From positions 63,105,743 through 63,169,742 of the forward strand of contig OY979717.1 of NCBI GenBank assembly GCA_963855995.1: 64,000 bases of DNA, read 5' to 3'. This stretch comes from Muricea muricata (lineage: Eukaryota > Cnidaria > Anthozoa > Malacalcyonacea > Plexauridae). Positions within the stretch are counted from its first letter, which is position 1, and each line of letters starts with the position of its first letter. The position numbers and the translations under genes are program-made. A model generated the notes under the pieces. That model saw nothing but the letters and a program-made list of their open reading frames with translations, made no database searches and was not told the DNA's origin. Positions 3,151 through 63,623 of this stretch are shown here, piece after piece.

Positions 3151-3761
3151 TGCCTCAGTCATTTGTAACCACGCCCCCCCCCCCACCCCCGGGACATAGC
3201 GGGGATGTTCAAAAATATAACGGGGATTTAACGCCATTTAACAGCGCAATATGCCCCGTAGTGCCGTGGAATTAACTACGAAATTTAACACCGGGGAATC
3301 AAACCGGGATTTTACAGCCGGTCTTAAAATGGCGTCCCACAAAACAACTTGTAGAAAGTATGATTTTTTAAATGTTTATGTATCCTTAACAATTCATAAA
3401 CGTACTGTAGGTATACATTATATCAGGTTTTACCTTATTTATTTCAGCTATTTGAAATTTGATATGCATGATGGAACGCAATTTTAATAAACACGAGCTT
3501 TATATATTTGTTATATTAACTGTTACTATTTTCTTGTTATATTGGCGTAATATTTTTAACACTTCATAAGCTTTTAAATTAATTTGTGATCTGGTTGATT
3601 TGGATGTTTTGAGGCCCTGCCATACTGTTTGCCATACTGGGGGTTTAACAAGTAACTTTGCACCAGGGGTGGGGAAATTAACAGTTTTTAACACTTGGTT
3701 AGTATTAAGTTCCCCGCTATGTCCCGGGGGGGGGGGGGCGTGGTTACAAATGACTGAGGCA
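3151..3761. mobile_element. GC-ended TIR element just upstream of the acyltransferase
   Basis: Inverted termini begin TGCCTCAGTCATTTGTAACC and run through a C-rich tract into CGGGACATAGCGGGG; the mirror copy ends at 3761 in ACTGAGGCA. Arms are about 55 bp. The interior has no transposase. No clean target duplication was found. The right end lies about 60 bases before the acyltransferase start codon, so part of that gene's leader or promoter probably derives from the insertion. Confidence 0.7.
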
Positions 3762-3822
3762 CAGTTCACTGCTGAGGCATTACGTCTTGCAACATACGCG
3801 GCCGTGCTTCATATCTTTTAAA

Positions 3823-5370
3823 ATGGAGGCGACATGGATTCATGCTCAAATGTTCACGACATTTTTAGCGATTATATTTGTTATCCGACTGGCAACTAGA
3901 CTATTTTTTCATGGGAGAACTGTGCATCCAAGACGAAATATTACCTCCAGCCGTCGTTTGGGCAAGTTTGAAGAATTATTTAAGATAATGAGTGAAGAAC
4001 GAGAAGGTACCACAAACAGTTGTTATGTGACGACGTTCTGCTCGAAAGAGAGCCTTAAAGAATCGCTCGTTCGCCAAGCTCTACTCCGTTCGGCCAAACG
4101 ACAACCATTACTTCGAGCTATTACTAAAACTGTTTCAAATTTTTCATGGCTTGGACGAAAGAACGAAACCTATTTTGAAATCATTGAGCCCAATAAAGTA
4201 GCGGACATGCTTGATCTAACAAAGTCTGATCTTCTTGCAAGCCAATGGCAAAAGGAATGGTACGACATCCTTTCGACACAGATAGAGAGAGGCTTGCAAT
4301 GGAAAACAGTATTGTTCAAAGAGGAATACAATCCAGATAGTCAGAACTACGTTAACACAGTAATGTTTCGAGTAAATCACTGCATTATTGATGGCATATC
4401 AGGCATAAAATTATGCAAACAATTCCTGAAGGACCTTAATAATATCTCCCAAGACCCAAGCAAGGACGAAGACATTCTGAGTCTGGAACTTGTGCCAAGT
4501 TTCTATGAAATAATCAGCAACACGCGATTACGGTCGTTTTGGGGTGATTTGCAGGAATCTCTAGGAATGAATTTCATTTACAAATTTGTAAGAAAAATGA
4601 AGTTGCAGATCTTCCTGGCTGTCCAACCACAAAAACCTTACCCATTGTTAATGTTTCAACCCTCAATTGAAGTACAAGATTTAATGTACAAAGTGTTTTC
4701 TGAAAGCCAAACATCGCAAATTTGCAAAGCTTGTAGATCCAAGGGGGTTACTGTGACTGCGGCACTTGTTGCTGCATCCCATAAAGCATTTTGCAAGCTT
4801 AATGAAAGTCACAGGTCAACGATGCCCCAGCAAGAGTCAATTGTACATGGATTTTCTATTAGTGGTCTGCGTGTCTGTAGGCCCAAACCTCCTGTTGAAT
4901 ACTTGGGAAATTACATTCTTCACGAAATGTTCTCTATTTCAAAGAATGAAGGAGATTTTTGGCTGATAGCTGAGGAAGCAACAAAGCAAATTCGAACTAT
5001 AATCACAAAAGAAAGATATGTTTCTGCACCATTGGCTGAATTTGATATTTTCACACCAAGCGAAATTGTGAATGAATTTCAATCTCCTTTAGATCCAAAA
5101 AAGAAATTGAAATTATGTTTTGGAAATTTCATCTCAAGTGCTGGTGCATTTAGCTTTGATGATGATAGTACTTGTACTTATAAACTGCAGGAGTGTGTTT
5201 ATTATTCTCTACCATTTGGATTTTCAAGTTTTTCTCTTCATTCCAATTCAACAGTTAATGGTAAAATGTCATGGGTAATTACATGCAGTAAATTTGTTCA
5301 ACGTACAATTGAAGAACAATTTGCAATGCTTTGTTTTGAAACACTTCTAAAAGCAACAGCACAAGAATGA
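3823..5370 (+). CDS. HxxxD-type (condensation/alcohol-acetyltransferase-like) acyltransferase, membrane-anchored
   Basis: An intronless 515-aa protein from the ATG at 3823. That start is preferred over the in-frame ATG at 3787 because it has a good Kozak context (A at -3, G at +4). Residues about 8-28 form a hydrophobic segment (MFTTFLAIIFVIRLATRLFF), suggesting an N-terminal membrane anchor. His186 and Asp190 lie in NHCIIDGISG, the catalytic HxxxD motif of CoA-dependent acyltransferases such as condensation-domain, alcohol acetyltransferase and BAHD folds. A GNYI segment and a C-terminal LPFGFSSFSL segment (about residue 463) are where this fold carries its structural motifs. It probably transfers an acyl group from a thioester to an alcohol or amine; the substrate cannot be told from sequence. 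An AATAAA signal follows at 5446. A TIR element ends about 60 bases upstream. Family assignment is from motifs only. Confidence 0.75.
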   Translation: MEATWIHAQMFTTFLAIIFVIRLATRLFFHGRTVHPRRNITSSRRLGKFEELFKIMSEEREGTTNSCYVTTFCSKESLKESLVRQALLRSAKRQPLLRAITKTVSNFSWLGRKNETYFEIIEPNKVADMLDLTKSDLLASQWQKEWYDILSTQIERGLQWKTVLFKEEYNPDSQNYVNTVMFRVNHCIIDGISGIKLCKQFLKDLNNISQDPSKDEDILSLELVPSFYEIISNTRLRSFWGDLQESLGMNFIYKFVRKMKLQIFLAVQPQKPYPLLMFQPSIEVQDLMYKVFSESQTSQICKACRSKGVTVTAALVAASHKAFCKLNESHRSTMPQQESIVHGFSISGLRVCRPKPPVEYLGNYILHEMFSISKNEGDFWLIAEEATKQIRTIITKERYVSAPLAEFDIFTPSEIVNEFQSPLDPKKKLKLCFGNFISSAGAFSFDDDSTCTYKLQECVYYSLPFGFSSFSLHSNSTVNGKMSWVITCSKFVQRTIEEQFAMLCFETLLKATAQE

Positions 5371-5451: not shown

Positions 5452-6219
5452 GGCTAGTTGTTCAAAGCTGGGTTAACTCTATGCCTGGGTTCATGCCTAA
5501 GGAATCAGTTCCTGGGTTGAAGATTCACCCATTGTTTTATCACTTCTGTTTTTCTACATGTTTGTTCTGATTTCAAAACATCTGGAACCGAAAATTATTA
5601 CAATTTCCTTTGAATTTTACTTTAATTGACCATAATGGAAAAAAAATGGCAGCATGTACCTTTTACCAAAATGTTGCAGGCATCAAACAAAAATGACAGA
5701 AAAAAAAGATGCCAAGAAAAACAGTAAAGCCATGAAACTTTAACAAAACAAAGAGAATAACCACCTCTCCTATGCTTGTCTTTCGACGGGTGTCAATTTG
5801 TATTTGAAACAATTTCTAACTGCAATGCCTTCCTGGTAAAATGTACATCTGCCATCTTTTTCAATATATACAGTCAATTCAATGTTAAGATAACCACCTT
5901 TTAAACAAACAGGCTGTGAGGTCAGGTACTTCTACATACATAACAGCAGGGATTACCTGGAGGCCTACAAATTTTTAAAGCTACTTTTCTTTTTGTTTTT
6001 ATCTAATCCTGTGCAATACACAACCAGCTTGTTACAACCTGTCAACAAGTTGCAGCAAACTTGTCAGCTCATTAAGTTGCCACAAGTCTGTTAAAATCAG
6101 GGTTGGTAGATTTTATGAATAAATAAGCCAAACCGTCATTAGTACCATCAAAATAACAAAGAGAACAAAAGGCGAATACAAAGGAAAACAATGAGCATTG
6201 TTGAAAATTTGGCTTATTT
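5452..6219. other. intergenic DNA, nothing recognised
   Basis: AT-rich, with A-tracts. No supported feature. Confidence 0.4.
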
Positions 6220-7058
6220 ATGCAGGCAATCTATAGCGATACCTCAATTAGACCACATTATGTCACCATTGCGAAAAATGGAAAAGTGTGTTGTAGTGAC
6301 TGCCTGAGCTGGAAAGCACGAAACCTCTGTGTGCACTACTTAGCAGCTGCGGAAAAGCTTGGCATGACAGCAAATGGCCTTAAGCAAATAAACTTAGGCG
6401 CTTTAGTAACTTGCGATAGTGCTAAAGGTGTTGGCAAAAAAGGCCACTGCTGTACGCAAAGGAGGAAGAAATGCTGGAAAAACCCCGCCGACAGTAGTGG
6501 TAGATCGGATCAGCTTCAGAGCCGAACCTCATCCACAGAATGCTTTCGCTTCTCTGTCAATGCCAGCGATGTTCGAAGCTCAACATTCTAGTAACCAAGT
6601 ACCTGTGCCAACGTATCAGTGTCAGTTACCCAATTCCGCACAGCCACGTTTATCGCATCCTTCGCAAGTTTCGACCTACCCACCAGTTCCACCTGCAACC
6701 GAGTTTTATGTGAAACCACCACCAGAAGCGATTGGCGACCTACCAGGAAGAATTCCTTTTTATCAACCACCTGTTTCCATCAACCCTGCATCATCAGATC
6801 CAGAAGGTTTCACCATTTCACCATCAGTCTCCTACAGTTCTGCCACTCGTCGGTTCGTGTGTGCTTTGGTTGTTCCCAGTCGCTAAAACCAGGCGGTAAC
6901 ATACCCAATCCCCCCCCCACGACCTTACGATTACGTCAAAAATGGAGGGAACCTTTTGTGATCCCTCAACAGGCGAGGTTAGGAGCAGACGAGGAAATGT
7001 GTATTTTCATTTAAATTTGGATTGTGTCAGGAGGAAACAGCCTTATTTTATAGCCTAA
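6220..7058 (+). pseudogene. SWIM zinc-finger protein relic (MULE-transposase-type C-terminus)
   Basis: The frame from 6220 encodes VCCSDCLSWKARNLCVH followed by LAAAEKLG, a SWIM-type CxxC...CxH zinc finger like those ending MULE transposases and their domesticated relatives. The reading then shifts near 6430 into a second frame rich in proline and glutamine. It shifts again near 6850 and 6950 into segments CFGCSQSLKPGG and CDPSTGEVRSRRGNVYFHL that look like one continuous C-terminus. A splice-acceptor-like TTTATGCAG lies just before 6225. Three frames are needed to read the homology, so it is a decayed copy. What the complete protein did is not known from this fragment. Confidence 0.6.
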
Positions 7059-11729: not shown

Positions 11730-14700
11730 TTATGCTCTGGCTTTTAGCTGCTTCATCTTGTACGCAGGGTTTCGTTTCTTCATTTCTTTCTTATGTAGTT
11801 TGTCCTGAAATTGCGAAAATGTCTGTTATTATGAATTTTTTGCATTTTGTGCATTGTGTTCAATTTATAGGGTCTTACATAGTTTTTTGGTAATATTTTA
11901 ACATAGTGTTGACAGGTTGAATGGTATGTTGTAATCATTATTTCTCATGTAAACTGCTATACCTCCCATCGTCTTTGTTTGTCAGTATCATCTTCATTCA
12001 TTATTCGTTCTTTCTCTGCGCGCTGTTTCTCCTCACGACGTTGTTGGGCCGCCTTAACATAAACACAGATACAGGTCATGCAGATGTGGGGGTACAAGGG
12101 TACATCGTGGAACAATAAAATTCTCACAAAAAAAGTGTCGCTTGTGAAGTGCCAGCTCTCATCAAACTCTACCTTTTAAGATTTCCTATTTGATAACAAA
12201 ACCCTATGGTCAAGACAAAGTCCCTGGAGAAATGTCATCACTTGTGCCTCATATTTTCCTATACAACCCTCCATTCAGAAAATACACCGCACATATATAC
12301 CTACCTCTTGACGTGATGCATGAGCTTGTTTCCAAAAGGATTCTTCCATTTCTCGTCTTTTCTTATCAGATTTTGCTTTAGCCTTTAAGGAAACCAAACA
12401 GTATTCATTTACAACACGCTACTCTATCTTAGTAATTTATTGCATTGCGTCTTAAAAATACTAAATTTGACAAATATATCAAATCCTTGTGCACTTAAAA
12501 AACAGCATGGATTGATGGAAAACTCATTTGCATTAACTTAAATGACATCAGATCTGTGGTAAAGAGCCAAAAGACTATGAAAAAGATACCTTTTTCTCTA
12601 TGGGGCGCCAAGTGTAAATTTATTATTTAGCGAATATTTGTTCGTATTTTTCATTATTTATAAATAAAGAGTGTAGAGCAAGATATTTATTTATAAATAA
12701 TGGACGTTTACATCTTCATTATATCTATATAATTGGTTGCACAAGCATTATTATTTATAAATAATACACATGTTTGCCTCATTATTTATAAATAATAACC
12801 GTTTTTAAATTTATTATTTACATATAATGAAGTGCATTGTGCTGCATTTTTATATACAAGTGTTTTACATATAAGCGCCGCAACGCATTATTTACATATA
12901 ATTAAATAAGGACTTGCCACCAATCCATTATTTACATATAATAAATTTACAAACGGCGGACGAGTCAAGATAAGGGTAAAACGCGGATACGGACGAATGT
13001 CCGGACGGATGCTCGGACGGATGTCCGGACGGACGGACGAGAGGGTAAAACACGGATATTAGAGTAAAACGCGGATATGAGGGTAATACGTGGATGTTTT
13101 GATGCAGGTACTTTAAACCAGACGCTACCTCAAATGCTGCGTGAGTAAGTACTGCAACATTCATCCCATCGCATTTAGACTGTTTGCAAACCACTAGAAA
13201 TTCAGCAAGGCTGTGAGTCTGAATATCGCATCCAAATGGACTGAAATCAAAATATGCATATTCCAGCAGTAAAGAAAGCTGGTCCGTGCATATTCCCTTA
13301 AACTCTACGACATTAGTATGGCGAAGGTTTTGGAGCAATCGCGCTTCTTTAATAAGAAATTTCTTAGTGTCTTTGTCAGCACTTATCCAGTTTTTAACTA
13401 CGACTTTGCTTTCGTCAGGAAGCTTCGCCGGAAAAACAACCGCAAATGCGCCGACTCTTATTTCCTCCTTATCGACCAAATTTTTGTATGAAAAAATAGA
13501 CAGTTCTCTAAAATCTAAATCGGATTTAGTCTGTCCGCACCAAGTTTCCGAAGAGCGGCATTTTACTTTAATGAACACGCTCTAGATTTGTGCTCCACAT
13601 GTCATGCTGTCTTAATTACAGTTGAGGTCTTTAAGGGGCTTATTGAGTTGACTCGCCTTGCAGAGTTGACTTGCAAATTGCGATTACATGTGCCGGGATG
13701 GCTCAAAAACGCATTAAGATTAATAATGCACAACACTCGAAAAATCGTGGCAAATTTTTTATTAATATATAATGGTTTGTATATTGCATGTTATGACTTC
13801 ATTACGTATAGAAGGAAGTTTTAGCTATTGGTAGCTATAGCTATTAGTAGCTATTGGCCCCGATCGGTTTTTCGCTTTTCAATCTTACGATTTGGGTTTT
13901 CGTAAAATGTTTTAATTTTGCAGTCCAAAATGTTATTAAAGCGTGTATTGAAACATAAAACATCATTCATTTGCTATTTTGAGTTTCATGACTTATATTT
14001 GTTTACATTTTCAAGATTAAAATCACTCCCGTGCCCGAATTCAACTCACTTTGCAGGACAACTCGCCCATGTAATCGGTGCCTTAAAATGTTATAATGAT
14101 GATTACCAATGTTATGATTACCAATGTTATCCACGTTTTACCCTCATATCCACGTTTTACCCTCTCATCCACGTTTTATTGTCATATCCGTGTTTACCCT
14201 CTCGTGCGTCCGGACATCCGTCCGAGCATCCGTCCGGACATTCGTCCGTATCCGCGTTTTACCCTTACCTTGACTCGTCCGCCGTTTGTAAATTTATTAT
14301 ATGTAAATAATGGATTGGTGGCAAGTCCTTATTTAATTATATGTAAATAATGCGTTGCGGCGCTTATATGTAAAACACTTATATATAAAAATGCAGCACA
14401 ATGCACTTCATTATATGTAAATAATAAATTTAAAAACGGTTATTATTTATAAATAATGAGGCAAACATGTGTATTATTTATAAATAATAATGCTTGTGCA
14501 ACCAATTATATAGATATAATGAAGATGTAAACGTCCATTATTTATAAATAAATATCTTGCTCTACACTCTTTATTTATAAATAATGAAAAATACGAACAA
14601 ATATTCGCTAAATAATAAATTTACACTTGGCGCCCCATATTTCTCTAGGAATAAAACTTACATTTCCTAAAGTGTCCTAAATACAACAAATATGTCAAAT

Positions 14701-17700: not shown

Positions 17701-20700
17701 ATCATAAGATAAAAATCCACAGAAAGTTTGTTTGCCAATGTAAAGAATACTTTACATTGACTAAGCTATTAAAAAAGCTATTAAAAAATCTACTGTAGCC
17801 ATCAAAGAAAGCAACCCATATTCAACAAATCCCTTCACCATGCAAACATCTACAAATCATCTTATACAACTTACCATGCTGTGGCCAGTTTTGAATTTTT
17901 ACTTCTTCCAGCAAAGAAATTCAAAGCATAAGCCGCTAAACCAGCAATCATAAGAATCTCAAGATAAAAACCTTCCCAGTTTGCTCTCAAATGATATGGA
18001 ACCTAAAATTATGATACACACGCAATTAAGATCATATACTTTAATTTTTTTAATTTTTTAATTTTATTAGGCTTTGCCAAGACTATACACACATTAACAA
18101 AAACAATATATATGACATTGACATGGCTAGGTAATCGCTACAGCTCAAGCTAATTACAGCGATCCTTCACACAATACGAAAAATACAATCAAATTAACAC
18201 TTAAAAATTGCACGGAAAAGCAGAATACCTCATCTATTTCTATACATACAAGCTAACTACAGCACGATATTGGACAGGACAGGTTACGAGACGTATTACA
18301 ACACAAACATATAGATTTCCACGTTCGTGGATTCTCTGCATCATAGGCAGTTTTTGAGGCAAGTTTATAGTAAGTTAGAAGACCGCTTTTAAAACTGTTG
18401 AATGTAGTGTTTTTATGTGTCAGGTCTTTTGGTAGAATGTTCCACAATCTCGTTGATCTCGTCAAGAAAGACTTCTGATATGTTGCGGTCTTGCACTTTT
18501 TTGTTTTATACATCAGATTGTTCGGATCAGCAGATCTTGTTGCTCTTTCCCTGTTTTGGATTGTTGGTGATAACTCGTTATTGATGACTGTTATCCCACG
18601 AGTGCATTTGAAGAAGAAAACCATGTCAAGATACTCGTACCAGTAACAAACAGGAATTAAACCAAGCATTTCAAGTCTCTGGTTATAACTAAACTCGCAG
18701 AAGACAGGAAGATCCAAAATGTAGTTGGTTGCTCGCCTTTGTACCCTTTCTATACGCTTAATAAAGTTGACTGATTGGGGAGCCCAGACCTGAGAACCAT
18801 AGCATAGTTGGGATCGGACTAAGGACAGAAATAAGGTTCGACGAACGGAGGTAGTTTTTATGTCAAGCGTTTGCCTTCTTATATAACCTAACATCTTACT
18901 TGCTTGTGTGCATTGATATTCAACATGTTTTGTCCAGTTAAGGTTAGATGAAGTCCACACTCCCAAGTCACGTTCAAAATCGATGCTTTCCAAGACAGTG
19001 TTGTGTACTTTGTAAGGGTGTTCTATCTTCTTCTGTTTCCGCGTTATTCTTAGAATTTTGCACTTCTCAGCGTTAAGTTCCAGATTGACATTGCTGGTGC
19101 ACACTTCGAAGTGTGTGAGGTCTTGCTATAGTGCTGTGCAAACTCCGGTTTTGTCACCTCCGCCTCCGGCAAAAAAAACTCCGGCTCCGGGAAAAAAACT
19201 CCAGCTCCGGCAGAAAATTTTAGGCTTGTGCAAATTTGTCAAAATTGGAAATTTTTACAGTTTGGAAGTTTTTACTTTCACATGCTTTACCGTCTTGCGG
19301 ACGTCACAGTTATACAAAAATAACATAAAATACCATAATTATAATTTGTATGTTTGTGTCAAGCTGTATTGGGCTGTATTTACTTTTTCTTCGATGGAGT
19401 TAGTTTTTCGTTGATCTATGATATAAGTTTGCAGCACAAATAAGTGCTGCCGGAGGTGAACAAACTCCGGCTCCAGCTCCGGCTCCGGCAAAGTAGGTCA
19501 AAACTCCGGCTCCGGCTCTCCGGCTCCGGTGCACAGCACTACTTGCAGCAAGGATGCGTCGTGTATGGAGTTTATGGTTCTGAAGAGCTTCGTGTCGTCA
19601 GCGAAGATCGCGATAGTTGAGTTACTTACGGTGTTGGAGAGGTGGTTTTCGTACAACAGGAACAGCAATGGATCAAGTATCGAACCTTGTGGAACTCCTG
19701 ATGTTACGGCTAACGGTCTTGATGTTACTCCATGAACCGTTGTTTGCTGACGTCGATTACTGAGATACGATGAGAACCAATTCAGGATGTTTCCACCGAA
19801 CCCAAATTCGCGTAGTCGTTTCAGAAGCTTAGCATGACCTACTTTATCGAAAGCCTTACATAAATCTAGATAAGTCACGTCAATTTGTTCACCACTGTCC
19901 AGTTTGCTCCCAATCTGCTCGAATACTTCAATAAGTTGCGTTACACACGATTTTCCTGGCACAAATCCGTGATGACAAGGGTTTATTTGTTGGAATACAT
20001 GATTTTTGATATTATAAAAGACACAACGTTCCAACACTTTAGAGACAAGGGAAAGCAGCGAGATTGGTCGATAATTCTCTACGTACGATTTCTTCCCTCG
20101 CTTATGCAAAGGTACGACATTAGCTAATTTCCAATCATCAGGAAGGTTCCCGCAGCGTTATGATTTGTTAAGGAGTGCGCAAAGTGATGGAGCGATCTGG
20201 TATGCTGTCTCTGTCAATAGTTGCGCAGGAATTCCGTCGGGACCGTGGGCTTTGTTGTTATCTAAATTCCTCAGCCCGGCAATTACCTCATCATTTGTTA
20301 GTGTTATCTCGTCCAGTATAATGTCAGTTTTCGAATGATTTTCTTGCTGGTGATCGGTATCAGAGTCGTGCGTAAAAATGGAGGCGAAATACGTGTTAAA
20401 TGAATTTGCTATTTCTATGTCATTGTTGGCAGACGTTCTTTCTGTGTTATTGTCTAAAAGACAGGGTTTCTCTCTATTAATTAAGATGTAGTGAATAAAT
20501 ATTAACTGTACTTATAGGGTTTTCGACATATTAATGTACCGTAATAATTGGTAAGAAATCTAATATCGGTATATTGGCGTAATATTTTCAGTAATAACAA
20601 TGTGTCTAAATTTCTGGTATACAATACATCGATTTTACATTGTTGAATCATGGCATTTTTTGCATCATAACAAAGATGCTTTTTTAATAGTTTGAAATTG

Positions 20701-53754: not shown

Positions 53755-54959
53755 AGTTCAGTTCTACTTCTCCTCTCCCAACCGATACTTATACCTCCCA
53801 TATCCACCCTAATAATTCCCTACTAACATCAAATTTCCATTTCCATTATGTCCCTAAATTCCTTTTGTCTAATGTAATGTCACTTGTTCCTAAAATAGAC
53901 GAAGTACAAGAAGTTGTTAGAAGTGGAAATTATCAATTTATTAGTTTAGTAGAGACCTGGTTACAAAATCACATACATGACCACGTGATTGATATTGAAG
54001 GATATAACTTAGTACGCAGAGACAGAATCAACGGCCAACATGGAGGCGTTTGTATGTATATTAAAGATTCAATTCGATTCGAACTATTAGAAACTATAAG
54101 TAACGAACAATTTGAGGTTTTATGGATCAATCTTAATCTCCCCAGATTACCAAGAGGATATAATAACTTAGTAATAGGAACAGTTTACCACCCTCCAAGT
54201 GCGGATAACTTGGCAATGTTAAACTATTTAATGAATTGCCTTTCGACGCTTGAATCCCTTTTTTCCAACTGTGCATTTATTATCTTGGGCGACTTTAACC
54301 GATTAAATATTTCACAACTAAAATCAAATTATGGTCTACGACAACTCGTTAACTTTCCTACAAGAGGAAGAAATACTCTTGATCTTGTCTTGACTAACCT
54401 CCATGAATATTATGACCAACCGACTAAATACGCTCCATTTGGCTTCTCAGATCATATGTCTGTAGAATTAAAGCCGAAAAACCGAATCCAATTCCAAAGT
54501 GCTCAAAGAATAAAGATCAAAAAAAAGGACCTTCGGCCAAGTTCTCGCCTGATTTTTCGAAAATATTTAGAGCTGTTGGACATTCCTAATATGTTTAATA
54601 ACGTTCTTACTTGCACTGAAAAAAATGTTCTATTGGAAACTATACTAACAGTCGGCTTGGACTACATTCTTCCACTACGCTCAGTTAAAACTTGGAGCAA
54701 TGAACCTCCTTGGATGACTCCAGAATTATCATCATTAATTAAGAAGCGCCAATTTGCTCTTAAACAAGGAAATATTGTTCAATTCAAATACCTTAGAAAC
54801 AGAGTTAATCGTAAAAGGAAATCGTGTCGTGCAAAGTATACGCGAAAAGTGTACAGCATCTCAAACAGTGTAAACCATCAGCTTGGTGGGATGAAGTTAA
54901 GAAACTTAGCGGAAGTAAATCTGTTTATAAAAATAACGAAGAAATTCTTAGAGCCTTAA
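53709..54959 (+). CDS. LINE ORF2, AP-like endonuclease part
   Basis: An apurinic-endonuclease-like domain: LSNVMSLVPKIDEVQEVV, the VETWL glutamate region, RDRINGQHGGVCMYIKD, GTVYHPPS, the ILGDFN aspartate/asparagine motif and the C-terminal SDHMSVEL histidine motif. The frame ends after the reverse transcriptase frame begins, because of a one-base shift near 54830-54850. In a functional copy it nicks target DNA for priming. It overlaps ORF1 by 46 bases in another frame. Confidence 0.85.
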   Translation: MVGAFESCSPADDKVKFSSTSPLPTDTYTSHIHPNNSLLTSNFHFHYVPKFLLSNVMSLVPKIDEVQEVVRSGNYQFISLVETWLQNHIHDHVIDIEGYNLVRRDRINGQHGGVCMYIKDSIRFELLETISNEQFEVLWINLNLPRLPRGYNNLVIGTVYHPPSADNLAMLNYLMNCLSTLESLFSNCAFIILGDFNRLNISQLKSNYGLRQLVNFPTRGRNTLDLVLTNLHEYYDQPTKYAPFGFSDHMSVELKPKNRIQFQSAQRIKIKKKDLRPSSRLIFRKYLELLDIPNMFNNVLTCTEKNVLLETILTVGLDYILPLRSVKTWSNEPPWMTPELSSLIKKRQFALKQGNIVQFKYLRNRVNRKRKSCRAKYTRKVYSISNSVNHQLGGMKLRNLAEVNLFIKITKKFLEP

Positions 54960-56569
54960 GACCTGATAACTACTTTTCGAAAACCGTTAAAGTCGAAATT
55001 GCGAACGAAATAAACAATTCCTTCCTGTCCCCAATGAGAACCTTCACCCCCCTTACTCCAGATCATTACCAAGATATGGTACCTATCAATCTTAACAATC
55101 TTATTCTTACCGTTAGCAATGAAGACGTGTTTAAAAAACTTTCTACGCTTAACTCAAGAAAGGCCAATGGTCCCGACGGAATTCCACTGTGGGTACTAAA
55201 AGAAAATGCTGATTTGCTAGCGTTTCCAGTTACAGAGATCCTAAATTGCTCGTATCGAGAATGCCGTCTTCCACATTCATGGAAAAAGGCAGATATCATC
55301 GCTATCCCTAAAACTAAATCCATGACTGATATTAATGACCATCTACGCCCGATTTCGTTAACACCCATTTTATCAAAACTAGCCGAAGAATTCGTGGTCG
55401 AACATTACATTAGACCTGCAGTTTTGGAAAAACTTGACGAAAGGCAATTTGGATCAATCCCAAAATCAAGTACAACACACGCTTTAATTAGCATGCTGCA
55501 TTCCTGGAATAAAAGTACGGATGGTAACGGTGCCACTGTCAGGGTTATGCTATTTGATTTTCGTAAAGCTTTTGACTTGATCGACCACCATATTCTTTTG
55601 GAAAAACTGAAGAAATACGATATTCCTAAATCCATTCTGCATTGGACCATGGATTTCCTTACCGATCGCTGTCAAAGAGTAAAATTAAGCAACGATTGCT
55701 TTTCTGAATGGAAAAATGTTCCTGCCGGTGTTCCACAAGGCACCAAATTAGGTCCTTGGCTTTTTCTAGTCATGATAAATGACCTGGACGTTGCAGAAAA
55801 CAAGCACCTTTGGAAATACGTAGATGACACAACTATGTCAGAAGTTATTAATAAAGATCAACCAAATAGTGCAATGCAATCTTATGTTGATACAGTTTCT
55901 TTAAAATCTGCAAACAATGGTATGCAGTTGAAAGAGTCCAAATGTAAAGAGCTTCGCATTAATTTCTCAACTGGAGAGTCTAGTTTCGATCCTATAATTA
56001 TAAATAACAAAGATATCGAGGTGGTTCACAGTGTAAAACTGCTTGGATTAACCATTACCGATAATCTTAAGTGGAACAATCACATCGAATCCGTATGTAA
56101 GAAGATCTCAACTCGTCTCTACTTTTTGAGACAATTGAAACGTGCAAAGTTACCACCCAAGGACCTGCTTTTGTTCTATGTTACATGCATCCGTCCTGTT
56201 GCTGAGTACGCATGTGAAGTGTTCCATGACTCTCTTCCTAAATACCTGTCCGATGATCTAGAAAGAATGCAACGGCGAGCTTGTAAAATCATCCTTCCTG
56301 AGCATGGTTATAAAGACTCGCTCAATGTCCTAAATATTCCACAATTGACCGATCGTAGACAAAATCTGACTGCAAAACTTTTCGAAAAAATAGTCAACGA
56401 TACAAATGACAAATTACATTGCTTATTGCCACCTTCAAACGCCTCAGAAGTTTTCCTCAGAGGAAGACGAAAATTCCAACTTCCCCATTGGAGAACGATT
56501 AGATTTAGAAATGATTTTATAAATGCTAACTCTAGAATATATAAATGTATAGATGGGAAATTGAGTTAG
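54824..56569 (+). CDS. LINE ORF2, reverse transcriptase part
   Basis: Reverse transcriptase blocks in order: STLNSRKANGPDGIP, LRPISLTPILSKLAEE, MLFDFRKAFDLIDHH, AGVPQGTKLGPWLFLVMIND, the catalytic KYVDDTTMSE box, LLGLTITDNLKWNNHI, and the C-terminal RMQRRACKIILP region. The real ORF2 would start in the endonuclease frame; this frame's own ATG is unlikely to be used. Apart from the upstream shift the domain is uninterrupted over 580 codons. Confidence 0.88.
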   Translation: MSCKVYAKSVQHLKQCKPSAWWDEVKKLSGSKSVYKNNEEILRALRPDNYFSKTVKVEIANEINNSFLSPMRTFTPLTPDHYQDMVPINLNNLILTVSNEDVFKKLSTLNSRKANGPDGIPLWVLKENADLLAFPVTEILNCSYRECRLPHSWKKADIIAIPKTKSMTDINDHLRPISLTPILSKLAEEFVVEHYIRPAVLEKLDERQFGSIPKSSTTHALISMLHSWNKSTDGNGATVRVMLFDFRKAFDLIDHHILLEKLKKYDIPKSILHWTMDFLTDRCQRVKLSNDCFSEWKNVPAGVPQGTKLGPWLFLVMINDLDVAENKHLWKYVDDTTMSEVINKDQPNSAMQSYVDTVSLKSANNGMQLKESKCKELRINFSTGESSFDPIIINNKDIEVVHSVKLLGLTITDNLKWNNHIESVCKKISTRLYFLRQLKRAKLPPKDLLLFYVTCIRPVAEYACEVFHDSLPKYLSDDLERMQRRACKIILPEHGYKDSLNVLNIPQLTDRRQNLTAKLFEKIVNDTNDKLHCLLPPSNASEVFLRGRRKFQLPHWRTIRFRNDFINANSRIYKCIDGKLS

Positions 56570-60406: not shown

Positions 60407-60595
60407 TTATTCAATTTTTCTTCCTAAATCTTTGGCTGTTTCCGCAGAAATAGTAATATTTGTGTCATCGGCAAACATAGCAGGTACAGAATTTACCAAA
60501 CAATTCGGAAGGTCATTTATATATAACAAGAAGAGGAGAGGCCCAAGATTTGATCCCTGAGGAACAAAAACTGAGCGACAAGCCTGAGCGAGCCC
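60407..60595 (-). pseudogene. reverse transcriptase scrap of a third LINE
   Basis: The minus strand reads PQGSNLGPLLFLLYINDLPN and MFADDTNITISAETAKDL, the B-C block (with catalytic FADD) of a Jockey/CR1-like reverse transcriptase. Only about 60 residues survive, and sequence on both sides is unrelated. Confidence 0.75.
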
Positions 60596-61124
60596 CAGTT
60601 TTGTGGCTAACCGTGCTGAAGCGCAATGCATTATGGTGCGTACGTACACGGGAATTTTCTACAGTGATTAAAATCCCATCGGCCTTTCACCATCCGAACC
60701 TCGATCCCGTTCTCCCAGTTTGTTGTCAACTTACCATGAACTTCGAAACGAAGTTCGCAACTTCAGCGTCAACTTGCATGGCTTCACACTTCGCAAGACG
60801 TAAGTTGCTAGCTGGTCGAAGAAATACAATAAATATGCCTTGGGTGAACTTAGGCCGGTTTAAAGTGCTTATAAACCCAAAATGGTTTTTTGGTGATCCA
60901 AATAGAGCTCAAAAAGTTAGTTGGTAAGTTGTAATTTAGTTTTTTTGTTGAGCGTTTAGTTGTGGAGATAAATGCAGTCAAACGTGCTAGTTTGGCCACA
61001 TTTGGGAAAAAAAGTGCGCATCCAAATTTTATGCTTAAAGGCCTGGGTCCCAGGAACCAATTTTCACAGTCACTAGGCGCGTTCTATTGCGAATGCATGT
61101 GTCACCGTAGTTTTTTGTGGAAAA

Positions 61125-61358
61125 ATGCCTGAAAGATGCGTTGTTTACGGGTGTTCTAATACTACAGACAAGAAAAATGATATATTCTTGTACCAGATAC
61201 CATTTTGGGATGAAAGCTCATCCGACGCAGTAAAACGAAGGAAGAAATGGATGGACTTCGATCGACGGAGGCGAGATAAATGGACGCCAACACGTTCGTC
61301 TGTTGTTTGCTCGAAACACTTTACGCCAGAATGTTTCGAGTATTATACCCAGTACTGA
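61125..61358 (+). CDS. THAP-domain protein (N-terminal zinc-binding module)
   Basis: MPERCVVYGCSNTTDK begins a THAP domain: C5 and C10 as the first zinc ligands, the FLYQIPF strand, tryptophan in RRKKWMDF, and VVCSKHF giving the Cys-x2-His pair, followed by TPECFEYY. The start is at a Met directly before the conserved N-terminus. The frame stops at 77 aa. About 35 bases on, a different frame encodes a basic Cys cluster (CKMCKQPMKGHKNVASCP, ending at 61504) that looks like the C-terminal zinc knuckle of a larger protein. The middle appears to have been lost by deletion, or an intron joins the parts. THAP domains bind DNA and are the N-terminal module of P, Kolobok and related transposases. Confidence 0.75.
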   Translation: MPERCVVYGCSNTTDKKNDIFLYQIPFWDESSSDAVKRRKKWMDFDRRRRDKWTPTRSSVVCSKHFTPECFEYYTQY

Positions 61359-61399
61359 TGCTTCATATGTTATTGTACACAGTTCCAGCCGCATCAACT

Positions 61400-61504
61400 A
61401 CCAGCACCAAACCAAAAAGAAATGCACCAAAATGCAAGATGTGCAAGCAGCCTATGAAAGGCCACAAAAATGTAGCTTCCTGTCCAAGAAATAAAACAAA
61501 CTAA
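61400..61504 (+). pseudogene. zinc-knuckle C-terminus remaining from a THAP transposase
   Basis: KPKRNAPKCKMCKQPMKGHK then NVASCPRNKTN and stop: a basic linker and CxxC...H...C knuckle. The frame differs from the THAP domain. A possible acceptor (TTGTACACAG) precedes it at about 61381. Interpreted as the other end of the same protein after an internal deletion. Confidence 0.5.
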
Positions 61505-61584
61505 ACTTGCACTGCATTGCACTTGGAATGTATATATTACAGAAGCACTTGTTTGCCATTACCAAAAATATTTTTCTTGTTTAA

Positions 61585-61842
61585 AGGATTACTGTCACAC
61601 CATAGTATTGCAGGCTTTTGTTATTGTTTACAATTTGTTAGATTTTGTCAAAAATTAGAAGTAATATCAAAAAGTCTTTGTTTGCTTCCATACCAGTAAC
61701 AATCAGGTTAAATAAGCAAAGATTTTCAAATAAATTGATTTGTTATTAGATGGATTATAAAAAGTTTTTATCTTGGTGTCCCAGATAAAATGGCTGCCAT
61801 AAGCAAATTGAGCACACAATGCCATGGTGTGGCAGTAATCCT
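61585..61842. mobile_element. nested 258-bp TTAA MITE
   Basis: Termini AGGATTACTGTCACACCATA and the mirror AATGCCATGGTGTGGCAGTAATCCT are flanked by TTAA at 61581-61584 and 61843-61846. No coding capacity. It lies between the two genes of the larger TTAA element, downstream of both. Confidence 0.82.
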
Positions 61843-62399
61843 TTAATGAAATAATAATATATTATGCACATATTAATCCAACACAGATGTCTCTGAATGT
61901 AAAAACCTGCCAGTCAATGGAAAATATACTCCCAAGATAGCATCTTGTCAAGCTGGGTTATGAAAACAAACTTTAGGTAATACTAACTGATATTGATGCT
62001 CACCATGCAAACTTACGAAGAACTTAATAATAACACTGTTTGACCCAGTATTTTGAGATGCTCAAGATTCTTGAGTGGCCGATAGAATCAATAATTAGTA
62101 GGGGGAGGGCAGGGGGATGATGATAAAATTCAAATTCATTCAAGTTAACGTTGAGTGAAAAATTAATTTTAATGTGGAATAACTAGAAAATATTGTCAAA
62201 CAAGTTTGTTCATTTTTATGCAAGATGCTATTTCTCAGAGCACATGTAACATTTACTTGCAATTGTGTAGAGACATAATTAACAGAAATTATTGCAGCTG
62301 TTAAAAGATTTTATATACTTCAGATTAGATACTTAAGTCTTTGAATTTCTAATAGTGGGCTAGCATATTAAAAACATGTCTGTACCCATTCAAAGATAA

Positions 62400-63363
62400 T
62401 TATTGACTCTCGTCATCTGTTTCAATATCATCATAGCCAGTAAATGCATGATCAAGCTTAAAAGTGGAACGAATAGCAGTATATGCACAAGAAGGCAATG
62501 GTATTCTTTTATCCCTTAACCGACCATGTACCATCCGTGTGAACTGTCTATATGCAACACCTTGAAGAAACCTATATTGAAAAAATACATATCAAGGTTA
62601 CATAATAGTTACATCTTCAGCTAAAATGAATGGTAATAAGTCTACCTTTCTTTTGAACCACTCTGTCTGTAACACCGACCATCTCGAGTTTTATAATTAT
62701 CAGCCGCAATCTCTAACGACCACTCGTTGAGGCAAACAGCTGGAAAACCGGGGTGATCTGTTATACATTTCAGTGCTCCTTTACCATCTTTACAATAAAC
62801 TTCAATGAACTGTAAGCAATTTTCGATCTCCAGACAACAACAGCATTGTTTGGCATTTTGCAACAATCCAGTGCCACAAGTGCACCTATGGAACGAATAT
62901 TGATGGTAGAATGAATTTAAATAAACCCACTTTACAGTAATTATGAAATGTAAATGACAATGCTCTTTAATTAATAAGGCAACTCTCAGTTTGTTGAAAA
63001 CTTAATTTGCGCATATGATGTGAAACACATACCAAGTGACGTGCATGGCAAAAAATAAAAATTGTACGAAAATTACCATGATGTTACAGGTTTACTCTCA
63101 TTCCATCGAAGTTGTAATTCTTTAACTTTTTCAGCTTCCTCTTCCCGCCTCCGGTAATACTCTTGAAGCCAATTTTCGTCAGCAATTGGCTCGTCTGAGT
63201 AAGCATCCATGTAATAGTTTTCGCCATCATGGCTACCTTGAGTGCCTTCATCGTGTGATTTTTCAATTAAATTTTCACTTTCGTACTGTTCATCTTCGAT
63301 TTCAAGAGGCGTGCTCGTAGAAGCCTTGCTATGTGTACTTGAGAATGAATTTGAGCCAGGCAT
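62400..63363 (-). CDS. P2X7-receptor ballast-domain protein (3 exons, 232 aa)
   Basis: Exons 63363-63077, 62885-62646 and 62571-62400 on the minus strand; GT/AG borders and phases close to 233 codons. Residues 1-60 are Ser/Thr/Glu-rich. About residues 60-90 form a charged helix (YYRRREEEAEKVKELQLRWN). The rest is the zinc-binding P2X7 C-terminal domain: WCTCG, CCCCLEIENC, CITDHPGFPAVCLNEWSLE, AYRQFTRMVHG, RIPLPSCAYTAIRSTF. In vertebrates this domain follows the second membrane helix of the P2X7 channel, where it binds zinc ions and guanine nucleotide. Here no channel part is present, so it is a free cytoplasmic or nuclear protein of unknown role. The gene is intact and lies inside a TTAA transposon, convergent with a THAP ORF. 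Start chosen at MPGSNSF; an upstream in-frame Met would fall in the inverted repeat. Confidence 0.88.
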
Positions 63364-63623
63364 TCCAACTTTTTTACGCAAAAATAGCTGATTTTTGAGC
63401 TTCGAGACTAAAATTACTATGTAATTGTATATAAAGTACATAAACATGTTCCTGGGATCCAGTCTCCCACAGGCGCGCACTTTTTCAACGAGCTGGCTTC
63501 TTTGAGCCCGGTTATCTCCGTAACTAAACGCTTAACGAAAAAACTAAATCATAACTTATTAACTAACTTTTTTAGCTCTATCTGAATCACCAATAACCCA
63601 TTTTGGGTTTATAAGCACTTTAA

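Follow-up and report, generated by a model that had tools for sequence, protein, structure and literature searches.

The window, the whole stretch of 64,000 nucleotides analysed here, contains at 60860-63623 an element with terminal inverted repeats, a truncated reading frame on the plus strand and a spliced gene on the minus strand. Its features are, from left to right:

60860-63623, no strand: whole element, 2756 bp between the TTAAs and 2764 bp in all, starting AG and ending CT
60860-60982, plus: left terminal inverted repeat including TTAA (123 nt, 85%; 112 nt, 88.4%)
61125-61358, plus: truncated THAP ORF of 77 aa, Pfam THAP, C-terminal part of the domain missing
61280-61504, plus: knuckle-like ORF in another frame, with the tail C-x2-C-x6-H-x4-C
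61581-61846, no strand: nested MITE-like element, TTAA-flanked, 258 bp between its TTAAs, 26-bp terminal inverted repeats
62400-62571, minus: exon 3 of the KolX-like gene, with the AYR, LPSC and IRxxF motifs and the stop codon (stop to 62400)
62646-62885, minus: exon 2 of the KolX-like gene, with the rest of WCxCG, the Cys cluster and the CIT motif
63077-63363, minus: exon 1 of the KolX-like gene, with the start codon and the N-terminal part
63501-63623, minus: right terminal inverted repeat including TTAA (123 nt, 85%; 112 nt, 88.4%)

Termini, THAP remnant and nested element

The first-pass annotation had placed TTAA on either side of the element, and both copies are indeed found, at 60860-60863 and 63620-63623. 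The terminal inverted repeats start exactly at the TTAA. In a BLAST search against the window they align over 112 nt including TTAA with 88.4% identity (E 9e-36), and the alternative measure gives 123-nt arms with 85%. The first 22 bases inside the TTAAs, AGTGCTTATAAACCCAAAATGG, are the same at both ends. Inverted repeats of about 190 bp had been proposed; the repeats are real, but good conservation is limited to 112-123 nt, and the rest up to about 190 bp aligns in gapped patches. Compared by eye, the 20-base flanks beyond the TTAAs show no likeness between the sides. Chance does not explain TTAA-bounded inverted repeats with unrelated flanks. The termini AGTGCTTATA...TATAAGCACT read 5'-AG and CT-3', in agreement with the 5'-RR/YY-3' rule that Kojima & Bao (2022, PMC9587614) give for separating Kolobok from piggyBac at TTAA sites.

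The ORF at 61125-61358 matches Pfam THAP with 44.8 bits (E 2.2e-11) over profile positions 1-63 of 87 and then runs into a stop, soon past the stretch CSKHFTPECF. It also matches the solved structures of THAP1 (2jtg, E 5.2e-8) and THAP2. The AVPTIF box, speculated in PMC6402169 to form the C-terminal boundary of the THAP domain, is absent from the three plus-strand frames up to 61504. A complete THAP gene restored by a short intron was rejected as a candidate, the box appearing in none of the enumerated GT-AG joins (donors from 61275, within 61125-61504). The earlier description of a THAP module convergent with the ballast gene therefore holds for the THAP match and for the opposite strands, but not for an intact module.

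The knuckle-like ORF at 61280-61504, which has no Pfam match at E<=1, is possibly the far end of a deleted transposase gene. None of the 14 ORFs of at least 40 aa overlapping 61359-62399 matches a transposase family in Pfam at E<=1, and one of them has a weak EGF-type match (E 0.14). Given this result for all 14 ORFs, the copy is probably unable to make a transposase.

Between the THAP ORF and the KolX-like gene lies an apparent second TTAA element of MITE-like form (61581-61846), which seems to have landed between the genes and was absent from the first-pass annotation. Its inverted repeats begin AGGATTACTG and agree at 90% over 30 nt including TTAA. Its ends, AGGAT, are similar to the end rule AGGRR of T2-MITEs (PMC6004289), but the fifth base breaks the rule.

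The ballast-type gene on the minus strand

The gene model joins 63363-63077, 62885-62646 and 62571-62403 into three exons with an open frame that encodes 232 aa. Both introns, of 191 and 74 nt, are GT-AG. The complete spliced 232-aa frame that had been read from this strand is thus recovered. Enumeration of splice sites in four set ranges yields two products of more than 200 open codons, with 232 and 224 aa. The GC content by codon position of the KolX-like frame is 0.50/0.42/0.31, as in coding sequence, and the rough chance of 232 stop-free codons is 3e-7 at the stop rate seen in adjacent non-coding sequence, where 55 of 874 triplets are stops.

In profile searches, Pfam P2RX7_C matches a 145-aa core with E 5.3e-4 and 20.4 bits, which is below the gathering score of 23.5 bits, and matches the exon-3 ORF alone with E 0.019. 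The full 232-aa protein has no P2RX7_C match in Pfam at E<=1, and phmmer against PDB returns no match for the 232-aa protein (E<=1) or for the 145-aa core (E<=10). Smith-Waterman alignment of a 144-aa core with the ballast region of 9e3m, 6u9v and 9e3q gives scores of 65, 63 and 53. These scores are reached by 0 of 2000, 0 of 2000 and 4 of 2000 shuffles, respectively, so that the four belong to 9e3q with its score of 53. We take 9e3m to be human P2X7 and 6u9v to be rat P2X7.

In the P2X7 alignment, the motifs follow each other in the order WCxCG, CIT, AYR and LPSCx4IRxxF, with LPSC ahead of IRxxF. They agree with the three cysteine clusters described by Rump et al. 2020 (PMC7016195) except for cluster 1 (PxWCxCx2C), whose third Cys is Gly in the 232-aa protein. 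The WCxC, CIT and PSC cysteines are retained. According to the same report, R546 and R578 are the two GDP-contact residues kept in invertebrates; R578 is kept in the protein encoded here, and R546 aligns with Gln. Identity as a P2X7 ballast, as initially assigned, is therefore weak by profile, with the score below the gathering score and the full-length and PDB searches empty, yet it is backed by the motif order and the shuffle tests. We conclude that the predicted 232-aa product is a ballast-type protein that is divergent from P2X7. It shares with the vertebrate P2X7 C-terminal ballast the order of motifs and local alignment scores above those of shuffles, and differs in having 232 aa without the P2X channel part and in its weak profile score. 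With the KolX, nanor and invertebrate ZCD proteins (Rump 2020; Kojima & Bao 2022) it has in common the short length and the C-terminal series WCxCG, Cys cluster, CIT, AYR and LPSCx4IRxxF, a likeness by motifs and not against KolX sequences; the Gly for the third Cys of cluster 1 and the Gln at R546 set it apart.

A probable Kol0-type Kolobok derivative and its rivals

A Kolobok transposase is usually made up of DDE, THAP and H2CH parts (PMC6004289). Kol0 elements code in addition for KolX, a protein with seven conserved cysteines and a reported ballast fold (Kojima & Bao 2022, PMC9587614). The element very probably derives by internal deletion from a Kol0-type Kolobok DNA transposon, is non-autonomous and would depend on the transposase of a relative to move. 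This fit is based on the TTAA sites, the AG...CT ends, the THAP remnant and the KolX-like protein. Against Kolobok identity stands that the defining DDE enzyme is missing from this copy. Since the search for a DDE transposase was negative, the element is filed as a derivative, one that would work like Kolobok provided that an intact relative exists, and not as a proven full member of Kolobok. In comparison with Kol0 elements of the Kolobok-1_XT type, which encode transposase and KolX, the ends, the TTAA sites, the reading frames and their order can be observed directly: TTAA, 5'-RR/YY-3' ends, a THAP-coding start of the presumed transposase gene and a second gene, for a ballast-type protein, are common to both, while the element here has no detectable DDE core, a truncated THAP, a length of 2764 bp and a nested MITE-like element.

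For the origin of this arrangement, we infer a parent with a THAP-DDE transposase on the plus strand and the accessory KolX, with its ballast fold, on the minus strand. The transposase gene would have lost its DDE core, so that only its THAP start, in truncated form, and perhaps its distal end remain. The smaller TTAA element may have inserted between the two genes, and the KolX frame stayed open. The transposase of an intact relative would recognise the terminal repeats and move the element by cut and paste at TTAA. KolX would probably act in transposition as an accessory or regulatory zinc-binding protein. That the ballast protein might be an accessory to the transposase had been suggested in the first-pass annotation, and this is in line with the literature, which counts KolX as an accessory protein encoded by Kol0 elements (PMC9587614).

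The open KolX frame may mean that the deletion happened recently or that KolX is used in trans, two possibilities that a single copy does not distinguish. A more far-reaching idea is that elements with KolX only form a selected class, in which KolX is kept after the loss of the transposase for acting in trans on the ends of the element itself, for example as a zinc- and guanine-nucleotide-sensing transposase partner or repressor. We regard this as improbable. If true, the P2X7 ballast would have an ancestral role in transposition control.

The same open frame next to a broken transposase gene would also be expected from a domesticated host KolX gene, similar to nanor, that sits in old, immobile transposon ends and is kept open by host selection. 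This reading is unlikely. It agrees with the description of nanor as a likely domesticated KolX (PMC9587614), with the shared synteny of ballast genes in several animals (PMC7016195) and with the 12% difference between the left and right repeats, and it is opposed by the persistence of the ends and of both TTAA sites. The 12% difference gives no age, because the left and right ends of Xenopus Kolobok elements differ too: in Table 5 of PMC6004289, the 16-bp ends are different in 10 of 10 full-length rows. A piggyBac-type TTAA element that acquired a ballast-like gene would account for the TTAA ends, but the AG...CT termini fit the Kolobok rule instead and a THAP remnant is present. In addition, Kojima & Bao, where they describe ballast-like piggyBac proteins, report that these lack most of the seven cysteines (PMC9587614), while those of WCxC, CIT and PSC are kept here. 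Such an origin is very improbable.

The order of a THAP start and a second gene could, in principle, represent a functional two-gene derivative that works in the manner of the P-element KP copy: its short THAP product would attach to the ends and so inhibit the transposase, and KolX would help. Repressors are a common product of small non-autonomous P elements, the 207-aa KP protein among them, and a 66-kDa truncation of the P protein, which contains the THAP domain, acts as a repressor that binds P DNA (both PMC7776569). The THAP start also remains open here. The THAP ORF ends short of the AVPTIF box, and its product therefore probably does not fold; no listed GT-AG join shows the box. KP is also longer, 207 versus 77 aa. 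What the element shares with KP-type deleted P elements is a short non-autonomous copy that leaves the THAP-coding start, whereas THAP is incomplete and a second open gene is retained here. Of the rivals considered, we give this one the least credence. The derivative of a Kol0-type Kolobok is the preferred reading.

Relatives, earlier literature and the surrounding window

At E<=1e-3, a search of the window with the element finds the element itself, its own repeat arms and the nested-element arms, and no second copy. The joined flanks find only themselves, without an uninterrupted copy of the site in the window. Outside its own exons, KolX matches the window at 5931-5815 (E 0.25 and 1.4) and in two places with E 2.6-2.7, which we take as chance. 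The THAP ORF matches only itself in the window, and the knuckle-like ORF has two weak matches (E 0.44 and 2.9). For the nested element, with the low-complexity filter off, a 39-nt match of 79% is seen at 18638-18674 (E 0.004), followed by four more with E 0.16-0.57.

Searches were extended to collections of viral contigs and prokaryotic genome contigs. The terminal-repeat patterns have no match in either, and the nested-element end pattern has none in the viral contigs. KolX patterns give 229 stretches in viral contigs, of which none was confirmed as a relative. A degenerate KolX motif was built from the window protein and from invertebrate ballast proteins. Its strict form has no match; the looser form has 11 loci in genome contigs and 4 in viral ones, and translations inspected by eye show no ballast motifs near the match in any of the 15. 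By tblastn, 4 of these 15 loci reach E<=1, with a best E of 0.012 (L013 and L015). No KolX relatives are found in phage records or PHROGs. Since the collections consist of prokaryotes and viruses, this absence says little about animals.

The first-pass annotation had also proposed that the ballast spread as cargo of a DNA transposon, from which a P2X gene could have captured it. This has already been published: Kojima & Bao (2022, PMC9587614) derive P2X7 from the fusion of a P2X4-like gene with KolX. Among the matches listed, no further paper treats the link between Kolobok or other transposons and the P2X7 ballast. According to Rump et al. (PMC7016195), a species has fewer than 10 ballast genes, and these show shared synteny across several Metazoa. 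Low number and synteny suit host genes better than transposons, and some ballast genes may therefore be ordinary host genes. The same authors describe an ORF from Ixodes in which a THAP-type ('TAHP') N-terminus precedes the ballast (PMC7016195). What is new here is the copy itself, its deletion beside a KolX-type frame that is still open, and the element nested in it. The element opens no new question by itself. It adds one more readable case to the published association of Kolobok with the P2X7 ballast, with two convergent genes and clear TTAA ends, and it offers a testable case for KolX function, as a KolX-type frame can outlast the loss of the transposase.

Several other coding regions lie in the window. 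At 6205-6591 (plus), an ORF without a Pfam match at E<=0.001 has a C-x2-C...C-x-H pattern, which we presume to be SWIM-like. A 538-codon stop-to-stop ORF at 3754-5370 (plus) encodes a domain of the alcohol acetyltransferase type (Pfam AATase, E 2e-8). Beside a kinase fragment, the opposite-strand ORFs at 12928-13581 (minus) and 13906-14310 (plus) share a terminal peptide stretch, which suggests an inverted repeat. A long LINE-type reverse transcriptase ORF is found at 54815-56566 (plus; RVT_1, E 1.1e-24), and a LINE-type reverse transcriptase fragment lies near the left end of the element at 60407-60658 (minus; E 7.6e-7, 29.5 bits, just short of the cut-off at 29.6). The window also carries spliced genes, GH35 and kinase fragments, and these, together with the LINE-type reverse transcriptase fragments, point to an animal host.
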